Below are positions 7,088-18,435 of a stretch of 18,435 bases of DNA, in pieces; within the stretch, counting starts at the first letter, position 1, and each line of letters opens with the position of its first letter. Source of the stretch: Pseudomonadota bacterium (GTDB lineage: Bacteria; Bdellovibrionota_C; UBA2361; OMIW01); contig OMIW01000134.1 of assembly GCA_900299205.1 (NCBI GenBank), forward strand, positions 1 through 18,435, written 5' to 3'. Position numbers and translations under genes: made by a program. Under the pieces are notes generated by a model, which saw nothing but the letters and a program-made list of their open reading frames with translations, made no database searches and was not told where the DNA came from.

Positions 7088-8194
7088 TCAGTCCGCGCGG
7101 ACGAAGGTTGAGGGTAAAGATGTGGTCGATGCGAGATAGTTGTTGATGATGCGCTCAACCTCTGTGGGTTCGAGCGTGCTCCCTCTGGCGCGGGGAGATC
7201 CTCCAATAATATCGCTGCCCCCCCATCTATCCAACGAATCATGAGAAATTCCCTCGGCCCTGTTGAGCTCATCGTAAAGATCAGAAATAGGGAAAGAAAT
7301 GAAGGGAGAGATTTTACCTATTGAATACCGAAATACCCCGGCTTTTTTGTCCCCGGGTGATTGTTCCCGAAATGCGATAAATGCTTTCACTCCCGAATGA
7401 TAAACAGCCGCTCGTGCGTCGTAGCCGACCTCTTCGACGAGGGTCCACCCATCCCCTTCACCCTCAGGCCCATTAAACTCGGTATCGAGTTTGATCCTCT
7501 CGCCGTGCCCGTCAATATGCCTGTCGATTCGTTCCCCTACAACGTCAATAATATCTGCTAATTCCTTGCCATCCATGGAAAAGAGACGGCCACTGCGCCT
7601 CGCTTCATTGTAAGGGCGATATATCCAGGCAAGCTCTTGAGCAAATTCTGATTCTGGATCAATCGGGAAAGCACCGGCCGTTCGGTCAAGGAGATCGACA
7701 TTCCGGACGAGACGATTGATACGCCACTCGCTTTTCTCAGCAGACACGCGGGTATGGTTTTTCAGCAACCAGACGGCGGTGCAAACATCTTGATCTGCGT
7801 CATTCACAAATATGCGAAGATGCGGAGCCCCGCCAGCCGAGAATGTGTCCATCAGACCCATTTTGAGGGCAATAAGCACCTGCTCTGTCGTACTCCCTGT
7901 TGCGAGGCGATCTACCCCTTCGTGGTGATTGAAATTAACTCGTGGGCCAGACGGGTCAAATTCAGGGGGGCCGAAGACGATACCGTCGAGCGCGACTGAA
8001 AACTCGGGAGCCCTGGCCTCAAAATCGTCCCACCGGATAACACGCCGGGGAGTAACGAAAAGTTCAACGCCATCTTTGAAGTCGCGATGGTACGTTACTC
8101 CGAGTGCTTCGTGGAGCTGACTCTCCGCACCTGGCCGAGGTAGCTCCCCATTTATTCGGTTTTCCTGAGACGGCATCATGTGAGGTTCAACCAT
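7088..8194 (-). CDS. Unrecognised 368-residue protein with DHH/DHHA1-like motifs
   Basis: I do not recognise a named family. Striking motifs are F-G-P-P-E-F-D at 74-80, V-N-F-N-H-H-E-G-V-D-R at 86-96, N-D-A-D-Q-D at 131-136 followed by VCTAVWLLKNHTR, a central acidic helical region, a strand pair at W-T-L-V-E-E-V-G-Y-D-A-R, and a glycine-rich R-W-G-G-S-D-I-I-G-G-S-P-R near the C-terminus. The His-His pair, the Asp cluster and the late glycine-rich motif resemble, in order, the metal-binding DHH and substrate-binding DHHA1 parts of DHH phosphoesterases. This is an analogy, not an assignment. I use the ATG at 8194; a GTG at 8233 and ATGs at 8179 and 8176 are alternatives. There is no signal peptide or membrane helix, so it is probably cytoplasmic. 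It lies between ppa/HAD and the glycosyltransferase on the same strand, with gaps of 129 and 75 bp, so it may have its own promoter. Confidence 0.85.
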   Translation of the reverse strand: MVEPHMMPSQENRINGELPRPGAESQLHEALGVTYHRDFKDGVELFVTPRRVIRWDDFEARAPEFSVALDGIVFGPPEFDPSGPRVNFNHHEGVDRLATGSTTEQVLIALKMGLMDTFSAGGAPHLRIFVNDADQDVCTAVWLLKNHTRVSAEKSEWRINRLVRNVDLLDRTAGAFPIDPESEFAQELAWIYRPYNEARRSGRLFSMDGKELADIIDVVGERIDRHIDGHGERIKLDTEFNGPEGEGDGWTLVEEVGYDARAAVYHSGVKAFIAFREQSPGDKKAGVFRYSIGKISPFISFPISDLYDELNRAEGISHDSLDRWGGSDIIGGSPRARGSTLEPTEVERIINNYLASTTSLPSTFVRAD

Positions 8195-8323
8195 TCCTCT
8201 CGATAGGCACTGGTTGTTACCCACCCGAGGCACGAGCTTTATTGCCCTTAATAATGATCCTCTCGCCTTCGCTCTGAGTCAATAATTAGACCAAAAGATT
8301 CGGAAGGTCCCACCCCAATAATC

Positions 8324-9783: not shown

Positions 9784-10167
9784 CTACTCTGCTGAGTTGA
9801 GTCGCTTATCCAGAACCAAGGCGAGTACCTCCTCAGGATCAGAGCCGTGAGTTACCTCTACGCAAGCAGGGTTCGAGTCTGCTTCCAGAATCACTAGAAC
9901 GCGCCGATTTGTCTCGAACAACGCCCCGATCGAAAATGGACTGCCTGAAAGGGTAGCGCAGGCAAAGCCAACCAGACGGAGTTCCGGGACGTTGATCAAT
10001 CGAGGTTCGCCAAGGCTATCTTTAAAACAGTCCCAGAAGGTAGGAAACGAGTCCTCGATGAACCGCTCTACGTCGCGAAACTGCTGACGAGCGTCTCTCA
10101 AGCTAAGGGCTCTCGATTTATCTTGACGCTCTTGATTCAGCCGATTGATGAAATCCTGAAGGGTCAT
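9784..10167 (-). CDS. Hypothetical 127-residue protein, orphan unit
   Basis: The protein has 127 residues, is acidic, and shows no signal peptide or membrane helix. The N-terminal 45 residues look helical and charged (DFINRLNQERQDKSRAL, then QFRDVERFIEDSF). The rest alternates strands and helices (ELRLVGFACATL, then RRVLVILEAD). I recognise no family and see no clear helix-turn-helix. It is a stand-alone unit: a perfect inverted repeat ends 8 bases before the ATG and a strong terminator begins just after the stop. The start lacks a Shine-Dalgarno, and the sequence between repeat and ATG is T-rich. Codon use resembles the neighbouring genes. The architecture suggests a regulated single-gene cassette; the function is unknown. 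Confidence 0.75.
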   Translation of the reverse strand: MTLQDFINRLNQERQDKSRALSLRDARQQFRDVERFIEDSFPTFWDCFKDSLGEPRLINVPELRLVGFACATLSGSPFSIGALFETNRRVLVILEADSNPACVEVTHGSDPEEVLALVLDKRLNSAE

Positions 10168-14399: not shown

Positions 14400-14479
14400 G
14401 GGTCGGAGAGAGGTTTGGGTGGTTGGGATGGGAGCGAGTCTTGTCCGACCGTCTATCTCAAGAGGTCGCGGAGGGCACC

Positions 14480-15301
14480 ATGGGCGTGTTAGGAGCAAGT
14501 AACGCCGTAACATCTTGGTTGGTAGGCTATATCCGTGAGTCTACGTGGGACGTCGAGCGAATTCAGAAGAGGCTCCTGACGGGAGAGCGGGAAGATGATG
14601 CGGTGAGAAGAGGGATTGCGAGGGGTATTGATGCTCAGGTGACGACGGGTCAGGCCACAATCAGTAATCTCAATGATGGCATCTCGTATTTGAACATCGC
14701 CGATGCTGCCCTCGAGGGAGTTCAGTCGATAATGGAGGAGGTCAAAGCAATAATCGAGGAGGCGGGAGCGACCACCGATGCGACAACGCGAGCTAATCTG
14801 AATAACCAGGCAACCGTTCTGATTTCCCAAGCTAACGACCTAATCAGCTCGGCAGAGTTCGGTCAAATAAGCATTTTTTACGGTGACTCGCAATCAATTA
14901 CCCTGAGCGCCAGCCAGGGGAGCTCGGGATCCTTCAAGGTTGTGGTAGGGGATGGAAACTCAATTCAATATGGAGCAATTAATATTTCATCGACGGGGAA
15001 TCCGACAACAGAGCTTGCTCGGGTCGACACCTATCTTGCGGTCATAGATGGTCGCCGAGGAGTCATTAACGCGGGTCGCTCGCGGGCAACCGCGGCCGTG
15101 ACGTACCTTGGGGTGATGGTAGGTTTGTATGATGAGGCATCGGTTACGATGCGCTCTATCGATGAGACAGAGGAGACAGCGAATCTTGAGAGGGCAACTG
15201 CTCAACAAGAGATAGCTTCAAACCTCCTGCTCGATCAGCTCCAACGAACTGAGAGCTTGATGTCGCAGATTTATGGGTCGATTCGGTCGTGGAGCGCGTA
15301 G
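14480..15301 (+). CDS. Divergent short flagellin
   Basis: The protein has 273 residues from the ATG at 14480, which has GGAGGG four bases upstream; an in-frame ATG at 14423 has no comparable site. The N-terminal D0/D1 helices are recognisable: V-E-R-I-Q-K-R-L-L-T-G-E-R corresponds to the SLERLSSG-R-I region, and ISNLNDGISYLNIADAALEGV to the classic ANDGISLLQTAEGALSEI segment, followed by a long helix and ISSAEFGQ (the NTTEFNG site). A short variable centre (about 130-175) is followed by a C-terminal helix with R-V-D-T-Y-L-A-V-I-D-G-R-R-G and ETANLERATAQQEIASNLL (matching ETAELT-A-ILQQAG). The protein should polymerise as a secreted filament subunit. Divergences are DDAVRRGIA in place of DDAAGLAIA and an aromatic C-terminal end (RSWSA). 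No other flagellar gene is in the window. Confidence 0.85.
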   Translation: MGVLGASNAVTSWLVGYIRESTWDVERIQKRLLTGEREDDAVRRGIARGIDAQVTTGQATISNLNDGISYLNIADAALEGVQSIMEEVKAIIEEAGATTDATTRANLNNQATVLISQANDLISSAEFGQISIFYGDSQSITLSASQGSSGSFKVVVGDGNSIQYGAINISSTGNPTTELARVDTYLAVIDGRRGVINAGRSRATAAVTYLGVMVGLYDEASVTMRSIDETEETANLERATAQQEIASNLLLDQLQRTESLMSQIYGSIRSWSA

Positions 15302-15767
15302 AGGAATTTTCGAATGGCCCAAGGGGCAGGGCGCATGTTGGACTCAGGCGAGGTTGGTACGGGAGTGCTCTGGCCTCTAGAAGCTCTTCTTCGCAACGAT
15401 CCGTGGTGCGGTCGAAGGCCCATTAGGGGGGCGGATATGCAGGGAATTTAGGGATGAAGGTTTCATGTGAACTCCCTCCGAGGTCCGTTTAATGCCTCTG
15501 TCGAAATTTGATTGGGGCCATCGCTCCGTCTGAAGGGGAATGACAAAGGGGTCGACGACAGCCCCAAAGGGCCTTTTCGAAGGCCGTGTCCTGATATCTG
15601 GATGGGGCCGACCCCGCCTGCCCATTTCCCCGTGCGAAATCAATAATCATAGACTCGAACGCCTCTCGAGGTGTATAATCAAACGGTGAGCTAAGAATAT
15701 GGTCGGACAACCGTTCGATAGCGATTTGAGAGAGAATGTGAGATGAGCCAATCACGGGGGGGGCGGC
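15302..15767. other. 466-bp spacer between flagellin and TadE-like gene
   Basis: I see no confident gene here. A 45-codon plus-strand frame (15314-15451) has AGGA upstream of its ATG but an uninformative sequence. A minus-strand GTG frame (15489-15755, 88 residues) has a plausible N-terminal half but no ribosome binding site. A six-base stem with a TTCG loop lies at 15570-15585 with no T run. Eight G in a row (15756-15763) form the only purine tract in front of the next start codon. Promoters for the downstream gene are expected here but not identifiable. Confidence 0.4.
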
Positions 15768-18435
15768 ATGTCGGTAAAAAGGGAGTGGCGTTCTTTACGG
15801 GGCTCTAAGGGCAGATCGGAGCAGGGGGTTCACATTCTCGAGTTTGCATTGATAGTTCCCGTCCTCTTTGGGATGGTTCTTGCGATAGCAGAACCTTTAG
15901 TGGTGATGCATCGTTACAATGGAATTCACCATCAACTTACCGAGCTGACGGATGATGCCCGGGGGAACGTTTCTCTTCTGGGAGATTTCTGGAACGGGGG
16001 GTCTGACCCCGATAGCAATCCCGAGTATCAGGCGTTCAAAGAAGCCCGCGCAAACCTGTCGCAGAGATTTACATCGGCGATGTCGGGAGTGAGTGGGGTT
16101 TCAGTTATCCCCGTGACGCACCTTGACAGGATAGGAACTGAGGAAAGATGGGTCGAGCTGGATATCGGGTATTTGCCACCGATGACGTCGGCTGTGGTAA
16201 ATCAGTGGCATGACGGACCAAACAATTCGGCGTCTTTGAATAATTCTCATGCCTGTGGCGTGGTCGCGCAGACGACGTCGTCGGCGAATGTGGCGAGTGC
16301 GCATAACAAGTTCAATGCGAGAAAGAAGCTGCAGAATCACGAGGATTCTGAGGATCAACCGAGGTCCAGCCGATCTGGAGAGCGGGCAACCTGTCGGATA
16401 AAGGAGGTACCAGCGGCTGAGCTGGCCTCGTGGAGCAGTCTTCCTTCGGTGAGTGCAAAACTTCCGACCGAAATGATGGCCGTGGTTGAGGTGAAAGGTA
16501 TCGTGGGGTCGTACCCCATGGTGGTGGCGGTGCCGTTTTATCCGCAGGTGCCCCAAGCGGTGACGGCTCCGAGCTGTCTGCCCAAGGCATCTTCGGGCAG
16601 CTGGTCGAACTGGAACCCGGTGTGTGGTCCGGGGACTCGGACTAAGACCGATAGCGATCAGTGTAGTAATTCGTGGACCTTTACGGAGTCACGGTGTCAG
16701 ACGTGCTATGAGTGGAGGGCCGGCTGGGGCAGAGACAATCCGAACGGAGAATGGAGCCCGAACTGCGAGGCCGATGGGATGCGCCGGCAATGGAAGTGGG
16801 AACAAGATACTGGGGGTTGCGAACCGAATAGGGGTCATCATTTGCAGGCAGGATGTCGCCCGACCGATAGCCGGTGCGGCTGGGTGAGGACAAATACGTC
16901 CGAGTGTCCTGTTGCTTGTGGTGGAGGGGAGAGGGCGTATACCGATACGAATGCGTGCAACGAAACTCGGCCAGGGGTTGAGGTATGTAATACGCAGCCT
17001 TGTTGTAATGCGCATCGGCTGGACATTGTGAATAAAGGGGATTGGGGGCTTGGCAGTCGGAAGTCAGTTCTGTCTGGTGATGGGAATTCGTGCTTGAGCG
17101 GCTTAGTCGACAAGGCTTGGAATGACAGTCAAGGTGCACGTCGGGGGAATGGAGTCGATGCGAGGGATGACGATGCAGCGGACCGTCTGTGTGAGCTTCT
17201 TGATCAAAAAGGAAAGGCAACCCAGCAAGGAAAAATACTGGAAGCGTTTGGTGCTTATGCTGGCTGCATCTACGTTAAGACGGAAGACTATGTCGGCGCA
17301 ACGACAAACATCTTTACGGGCTACCTCTCAGCCGATTGTCAATCAATTATCCCCGCCAGTAGCGTGAATGGCCTCTGTTCCCATGTGGAGTTCGGTTACA
17401 GAGTTTCCCCCATATCCCTCGCGTGGAGCGAGCGGGAACAAAGTTCAGACGACGAGCTCGTCGTTACTCAATTTCCCCTTTTTGAAGGTCCAGAGAAGGG
17501 GTGGGTAGTTTGGAAGGCCTCGGGTCGAATGCCGCTCCTTGTGAGGGATCCAGAGAGAACGGGCAGGGTTGTTTCGGCTGAGCAGCTCTTTGGATCCCGA
17601 AGCTTTGGTGGTAAGCCCGGAGGAGGGCACTGGGCGCACGGTTTCGACGCATTGGCGACCCTTGATTCTGACTTGGATGGGAAAGTCTCGGGGGGTGAAG
17701 TGACGGACCTTGCGCTCTGGTTTGATGAAAACCGGGATGCAGTGTCACAGCCTGGCGAGGTGAAATCACTTTCTGATCCCTCTGTGGGCGTGACTGAACT
17801 GTTTTACAAAGATGTGAAGCGAGATGAAAAAACGGGAGACGTGATAGCTGAAATTGGCTTTTCACGGGCGGTGGACTCAGGGGTGCGTCAAGGGAAAGCA
17901 ATCGATTGGTTTGCTGAGGGAGGTCCGAGTAGGCAACAGGTGATAAACCAGTTGCTTGCGATATCTGACACGAGACCAGAGCCAGTGAGGAAGTCGGGGG
18001 CGGCGACGAAAGATGGCTCGGGCGGCTCAGGGTCCGCATCATTGAGCGGAGCGCCGAGAAAGAAGGTGGTATCATCGCCCCTTAACGGGCTTTGGCTGTG
18101 GAATGCAGAGGGAGAGCGGTCGAAGGAGCTCGAGAAAGAGGATCTGGGAGGCGTCCTTCTCTTTGCCGACTTTGGCAAAGGAGTGATTGCGGGTCAGTCG
18201 ATCATTGAGGTCCCCTTTATCGAGGGTGCTCCATACCGAGGACAGATTACCTCAGTGAGCTTCACAGGTACATCAAAGAGGCGAGCAGGAAAGAAAATGG
18301 AACTTGCGTTCACAATCTTTCCGGGGGGTGAGGAGAATAAAGCGACTGCGGTCAGCACGACCGCTGTTCTGGACGAAAATACCAACACCATCCGAGGAAC
18401 CAGTCGTGCACAGGTTATGTACGAGGGGAAGTTAA
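15768..18435 (+). CDS. TadE-like membrane-anchored surface protein with TSP1-like repeats and EF-hand pair, 3' end cut by window edge
   Basis: The open frame gives 889 residues with no stop before the edge; the TAA at the last three bases is out of frame. The N-terminus is TadE-like: a basic leader, then EQGVHILEFALIVPVLFG with the conserved Glu, and one hydrophobic helix (about 21-42). Residues 43-265 look like the following pseudopilin or secreted region. A cysteine-rich part (270-413) contains thrombospondin-type-1-like repeats: W279-S-N-W282-x3-C286-G-P-G, G-E-W329-S-P-N-C333, and C380-P-V-A-C384-G-G-G ending in C407-N-T-Q-P-C412. Residues 627-665 hold two EF-hand calcium loops with correct spacing: D633-x-D635-x-D637-G...E644 and D653-x-N655-x-D657...E664. 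A Gly/Ser linker (about 745-762) follows. A large Tad-type minor pilin or adhesin is likely. The gene follows a divergent flagellin; its start is preceded by a G8 run. Confidence 0.85.
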   Translation, partial: MSVKREWRSLRGSKGRSEQGVHILEFALIVPVLFGMVLAIAEPLVVMHRYNGIHHQLTELTDDARGNVSLLGDFWNGGSDPDSNPEYQAFKEARANLSQRFTSAMSGVSGVSVIPVTHLDRIGTEERWVELDIGYLPPMTSAVVNQWHDGPNNSASLNNSHACGVVAQTTSSANVASAHNKFNARKKLQNHEDSEDQPRSSRSGERATCRIKEVPAAELASWSSLPSVSAKLPTEMMAVVEVKGIVGSYPMVVAVPFYPQVPQAVTAPSCLPKASSGSWSNWNPVCGPGTRTKTDSDQCSNSWTFTESRCQTCYEWRAGWGRDNPNGEWSPNCEADGMRRQWKWEQDTGGCEPNRGHHLQAGCRPTDSRCGWVRTNTSECPVACGGGERAYTDTNACNETRPGVEVCNTQPCCNAHRLDIVNKGDWGLGSRKSVLSGDGNSCLSGLVDKAWNDSQGARRGNGVDARDDDAADRLCELLDQKGKATQQGKILEAFGAYAGCIYVKTEDYVGATTNIFTGYLSADCQSIIPASSVNGLCSHVEFGYRVSPISLAWSEREQSSDDELVVTQFPLFEGPEKGWVVWKASGRMPLLVRDPERTGRVVSAEQLFGSRSFGGKPGGGHWAHGFDALATLDSDLDGKVSGGEVTDLALWFDENRDAVSQPGEVKSLSDPSVGVTELFYKDVKRDEKTGDVIAEIGFSRAVDSGVRQGKAIDWFAEGGPSRQQVINQLLAISDTRPEPVRKSGAATKDGSGGSGSASLSGAPRKKVVSSPLNGLWLWNAEGERSKELEKEDLGGVLLFADFGKGVIAGQSIIEVPFIEGAPYRGQITSVSFTGTSKRRAGKKMELAFTIFPGGEENKATAVSTTAVLDENTNTIRGTSRAQVMYEGKL

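Follow-up and report, generated by a model that had tools for sequence, protein, structure and literature searches.

The gene that runs off the end of this contig encodes a protein in which a TadE-type pilin helix is fused to a domain with the fold of the FrpC self-processing module (SPM) of Neisseria meningitidis, and genes for relatives of that domain stand next to Tad minor-pilin genes in five loci. Taken together, the fusion in this protein and the operon linkage in its relatives connect the SPM-like domain with minor pilins of the TadE type, which is a better finding than the thrombospondin type 1 (TSP1) modules stressed in the first-pass annotation. On the reading we prefer, with a probability of about 55%, the product is a calcium-binding, minor-pilin-like protein at the tip of a Tad pilus, or otherwise anchored through its pilin helix, whose head would serve adhesion. 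Two systems are linked in this way, the variable tips of Tad pili and the FrpC-type calcium module, a connection for which we found no precedent in the literature searched, where no paper connected TadE or the pilus with FrpC or self-processing.

The gene and its contig

The window, by which we mean the whole 18,435-nucleotide stretch that was analysed, is an entire contig (G000:C134), and the reading frame at its end is truncated for that reason. The open frame of at least 889 residues described earlier is real, and comparison with relatives suggests that about 15 residues are missing from the end of the protein; a search of the other contigs for the continuation of the gene did not find it. 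The features discussed below are collected in Table 1. A run of eight G lies shortly 5' of the ATG, where slippage could alter the spacing of the ribosome site.

Table 1 Features of the truncated gene and of the region upstream of it, in window coordinates
Feature	Coordinates	Strand	Remarks
Sigma-70-like promoter match, TAGACT-18-TATAAT	15650..15679	+	Consensus match only; upstream of the ATG at 15768
Whole reading frame, 889 residues seen	15768..18434	+	No stop codon; cut by the end of the contig and window
TadE/class IV pilin-like signal, residues 16-51	15813..15920	+	Leader, G20/V21, E25 (+5), hydrophobic helix
TSP1-like module 1, residues ~268-310, W..W..CGPGTRT..C..C	16569..16698	+	Weak structural resemblance
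TSP1-like module 2, residues ~316-368	16713..16872	+	Most degenerate of the three
TSP1-like module 3, residues ~371-414, CPVACGGG...CNTQPC	16878..17009	+	Sequence comparison and weak structural matches
Cys-containing N-lobe, residues ~412-546	17001..17405	+	Conserved C475, C500, C524, C537
FrpC-SPM-like domain, residues ~547-735	17406..17972	+	S547-P548 in place of the scissile Asp-Pro
EF-hand loop 1, D633-SDLDGKVSGG-E644	17664..17699	+	
EF-hand loop 2, D653-ENRDAVSQPG-E664	17724..17759	+	
C-terminal beta-barrel, avidin-like topology, residues ~770-889	18075..18434	+	AF2 model; cut by the contig end

The fusion to the TadE helix was seen in one genome only, a MAG, and the contig end is close, so that an artefact of assembly or annotation, a chimeric frame made from two genes, had to be weighed. 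We give this a very small chance, since the frame runs uninterrupted over 889 codons with even composition and the TSP1-like modules recur in a second TadE protein that this genome encodes.

An FrpC-SPM-like domain in the main body of the protein

The main body of the protein, residues ~412-889, was overlooked by the first-pass annotation. It is a clade-specific, multi-copy family, found in 16 of the 45 genomes with 1-9 matches each and with 22-35% identity to the window sequence in the search of relatives; when the named genome contigs were scanned with the full protein, a single distant SPM-like match was obtained (L028, labelled Bdellovibrionaceae). The family profile matches the FrpC SPM structures at E 4e-17. 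In the AF2 model of residues 412-889 (pLDDT 75) the SPM part lies mostly at 85-98, and this model aligns with 6sjw at Z 15.7 over 156 residues with 23% identity (Foldseek E 2e-7), 6sjx being the only other strong structural match for the region. Profile and structure both place the SPM fold in the window protein. Pfam matched nothing in the 889 residues except TadE, below threshold, and, in a difference from FrpC, no RTX family; the family's NCBIfam matches (for example XopAW, E 0.016) were set aside as due to the EF-hands alone. In one relative's genome two SPM-like genes form a tandem pair (L184, G042:C106).

The claim of two consecutive EF-hand loops proved strong, although the pair forms the core of the SPM-like domain and is no module of its own. 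Each is a 12-residue loop with acidic residues or Asn at positions 1, 3, 5 and 12, conserved in ~52 relatives: across the family D633 is kept in 53/53 sequences, E644 in 52/53, and D653 and E664 in 52/52. Pfam's EF-hand models pick up as many as 19 of 34 family members, the window protein not being among them. FrpC binds calcium at four sites (D419-G424 with D456, D462-E474, D499-D511 and D521-E532), and upon binding cuts Asp414-Pro415 by a mechanism that relies on the Asp side chain (PMC7078468). By alignment, the loops of sites 3 and 4 are shared with FrpC (PDB 6sjw/6sjx) and near-invariant in the family, whereas the first (DLDGDG) is gone and the second degenerate. Also shared are the Pro at the cleavage boundary, present in all 51 aligned sequences, and the port glycines; the positions that match the FrpC 'narrow port' in the alignment (L607, G609, G625) and D713 are near-invariant.

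In contrast, the scissile Asp of FrpC is Ser or Thr in 49 of the 51 relatives, the position before the Pro being occupied by Ser in 35, Thr in 14, and Cys and Asp in one each; the sole member that keeps Asp-Pro is L193:5534-7018 (G040:C44). Since seven of eight SPM homologues sampled on plasmids of other bacteria keep Asp-Pro, the eighth having Thr-Pro, it is the clade that has departed from this pair, near-uniformly. The loss of the catalytic Asp within a conserved SPM fold amounts to a natural experiment on the fold without self-cleavage.

With S547 in place of the scissile Asp, FrpC-type clip-and-link is probably absent from the window protein, and the classical reaction is unlikely in the family on the aligned sequences; on the simplest reading, calcium has a structural role in the SPM-like domain. 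Alternative Ser/Thr chemistry in the family is possible but unsupported. It would have outside calcium strain the Ser/Thr-Pro bond of a protein at a Tad tip, so that the chain would be cut and covalently coupled at S547-P548 or just beside it, and if this were true a pilus-borne segment would be freed or covalently joined to a neighbouring surface. The restriction of the pre-Pro position to four residues and the near-invariant port residues and D713 are consistent with such a variant, but we see only a slim chance for it: FrpC needs the Asp side chain (PMC7078468), the corresponding anhydride is impossible with Ser or Thr, two of the four FrpC calcium loops are lost or degenerate, and the clade has left the Asp-Pro that homologues elsewhere retain.

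Beyond the SPM-like domain, the model ends in a barrel with the topology of avidin and streptavidin (Z 9.6, 98 residues aligned; Foldseek not significant). No sequence match to the barrel was found in the PDB or Pfam, and none to avidin. Apparent stand-alone barrel genes were mostly fragments at contig edges. Both this barrel and the fused pilin-type helix set the window protein apart from FrpC.

A TadE-type N-terminus on a single family member

The TadE-like N-terminus reported earlier is supported by the pilin motif G20/VHILE25 (the slash marking the presumed cut), followed by a hydrophobic helix, and by a TadE HMM, though PF07811 covers residues 23-51 at 17.4 bits, under its cut-off of 22.9. 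The TadE of the genome's own Tad locus (C150) itself scores just 23.4 bits with this model. The HMM was built from relatives in the class, with the window's own genome left out, and gave the window N-terminus 15.9 bits; none of 200 shuffled N-termini scored above 4.4. TadE genes occur in 36 of 37 genomes of the lineage, with up to 38 matches, and the G/xxxxE motif is common to the own-genome TadE proteins of C62, C174, C142, C114 and C150. The pilin signal and hydrophobic helix are those of TadE and TadG (PF07811, PF13400); unlike these small pilins, the window protein has ~890 residues and falls below the Pfam cut-off.

Within the C-terminal family the window protein is the only member with the pilin motif. 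In the relatives the distal part stands as a protein of its own, usually with a signal-peptide-like N-terminus (judged by eye), then a Cys-rich (DCxGxCxG, GCGCG) or Pro/Thr-rich stalk, then the domain, whereas in the window it is fused to the TadE helix.

Two further large or split TadE-like genes were noticed in the same genome. L115:8809-11382 (G000:C114) encodes an orphan TadE-like protein of 857 residues with no other Pfam match, and L127:7044-8075 and L128:5697-6068 (G000:C131 and C174), whose TadE-like fragments have in common the sequence ...LADSARVIARAIQDDPT, are probably a single orphan gene lying across two contig ends.

Some relatives of the domain adjoin Tad minor pilins

When the neighbours of 36 SPM-like genes were clustered, the family that recurred most was that of the TadG-like proteins, at four loci and always on the same strand; the ABC-type ATPases that made up the other cluster varied in both distance and strand. 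In a fifth locus, G042:C83, the genes run TadE-TadE-TadG-SPM with a gap of 27 bp. The five loci (G032:C306, C170 and C312; G042:C83; G035:C62) come from three genomes in two families, with gaps of 27, 64, 137, 252 and 1343 bp and the SPM-like and TadG-like genes on the same strand throughout; in G032:C170 an opposite-strand gene lies in between, and in G032:C312 the contig end truncates the TadG-like gene, which lies downstream there. PF13400 and PF07811 confirmed minor pilins in all four loci tested, the TadG assignment coming from PF13400, and Pfam found vWA in two of the TadG-like proteins, one of them weakly. At a rough estimate (38 TadE matches in a 4.5 Mb genome) a gene would lie next to TadE by chance in ~2% of cases, which makes the three-out-of-three adjacency in G032 unlikely to be accidental. 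No Tad gene was seen near ~40 of the 47 SPM-like loci whose flanks were read.

Tad machinery is present in the window's own genome; its absence would have counted against the first-pass annotation. The 8.6-kb contig C150 carries RcpC, TadA, TadB, TadC, TadE and a TadG-like gene (PF13400 marginal), and C4 has two Flp pilin matches, both below the Pfam cut-off. An A24 prepilin peptidase was not found in this MAG, which is ~90% complete; the enzyme is present in 34 of the 37 genomes covered by the search, and its absence here is therefore probably due to incomplete assembly. These genes, with the TadE-TadE-TadG operons adjoining the C-terminal relatives, strengthen the earlier view of a TadE-anchored protein. 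The window gene itself is not beside Tad genes, and no other minor pilin lies in the window before the contig ends.

That isolated position fits a more modest role, in which the TadE-like helix is an inner-membrane anchor only, the head stays in the periplasm or is released without ever joining a pilus, and the SPM-like domain serves as a structural module that binds calcium. The genome commonly has TadE genes as orphans (C62, C114, C142, C131/C174), the window TadE stands outside any Tad locus, and most C-terminal relatives begin with a signal-peptide-like stretch and lack Tad genes nearby. The operon association at five loci, the presence of the Tad machinery and the Cys-rich stalks, which suit extracellular display, speak against it, and we consider a mere anchor unlikely, though it deserves to be taken seriously.

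Display at the tip appears most likely by analogy with Myxococcus xanthus, whose Tad tips carry interchangeable minor-pilin complexes of the TadEFG type with distinct distal domains (PMC12075869). These Kil/Tad Tips (KilLMN; TadEFG) combine a pilin-type helix with a large variable distal domain, as does the window protein, and several different tip-like proteins occur per genome, as they do here; the TadE-TadE-TadG sets beside relatives of the window domain liken these to the minor-pilin complexes of the Tips. Unlike those, the window gene is an orphan and not part of a trio. The published KilN4 tip domain had no PDB match, and the description of the Tips mentions neither a calcium nor an SPM domain (PMC12075869). 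In the window protein, cleavage behind G20 would leave the pilin helix to insert into the inner membrane or the bundle at the tip, the three Cys-rich TSP1-like modules would form a short stalk, and the distal part would comprise the calcium-binding FrpC-SPM-like domain followed by the barrel. A calcium-stabilised binding head presented at the tip could then adhere to surfaces or other cells. Of the pilus-tip adhesin proposed earlier, the better supported part is a TadE-anchored, calcium-binding surface protein at or near the tip, and adhesion, like processing of the helix, the location at the tip and calcium binding itself, is what we infer from the observed domains, their homology, the fusion, the operon linkage and the Tad genes. 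The gene suggests that a whole lineage carries such proteins on its pilus tips, and a lineage-specific family with swapped stalks and one pilin-helix fusion offers a testable candidate for how pili are equipped for contact.

The TSP1-like modules are degenerate

The first-pass annotation was partly confirmed in what it observed and partly supported in how it read it: the TadE N-terminus and the EF-hand loops stand, and the TSP1 part is motif-like and below Pfam thresholds. The CGGG...CNTQPC tail is indeed present, and its spacing, together with the Trp of module 1, is that of a thrombospondin type 1 repeat (PF00090/PF19030); but the core motif has five rather than six cysteines, and on the sequence the three tandem copies are degenerate. 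Neither a Pfam search of the window protein nor comparison of the TSP1-like part with Pfam and the PDB, by single sequences and by a five-module profile, gave a significant match. PF00090 had no match in the own genome at E<=1, and its matches across 37 genomes, mostly at chance level, were discarded.

The pattern of the three modules recurs in one other place in the genome, L004:3177-4676 (G000:C62), a second TadE-like protein of 499 residues with two near-identical TSP1-like repeats and no SPM-like domain. Module 3 is ~50% identical to these repeats, which match TSP1_ADAMTS at E 2.6e-4, below threshold (21.6 against a cut-off of 23.8 bits). The cysteines are in this sense conserved in a paralogue, but they are absent from the other family members, which hold different Cys-rich or PT-rich stalks at this position, and a search of the other 44 genomes of the phylum found no clear relatives of the repeats and two weak matches. 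The AF2 model of this part is of low confidence (pLDDT 42); among its weak structural matches TSR chains recur for modules 1 and 3 (Z 2.4-3.2).

A genuine TSP1 adhesin, whose binding surface would consist of transferred repeats of the animal or apicomplexan type, would account for the CSxTCGGG...CNTQPC motifs, the near-threshold C62 repeats and the recurrent TSR chains. It is improbable in our judgement, given the missing Pfam match, the poor model, the lack of clear relatives and the unrelated stalks of other members, and the earlier emphasis on animal-like TSP1 as the central feature is doubtful. Stalk exchange is also visible among the paralogues, where DECGVCGGDGSSC-type Cys-repeat stalks (L034, L043, L044, L048 and others) are swapped ahead of the same C-terminal domain.

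Other genes in the window

Two reading frames on the minus strand, at 7088-8233 and 9784-10167 (381 and 127 residues), have no meaningful Pfam match. Directly upstream of the fused gene, at 14423-15301, lies a short stand-alone flagellin-like gene whose start codon is uncertain and whose product matches Flagellin_N and Flagellin_C.
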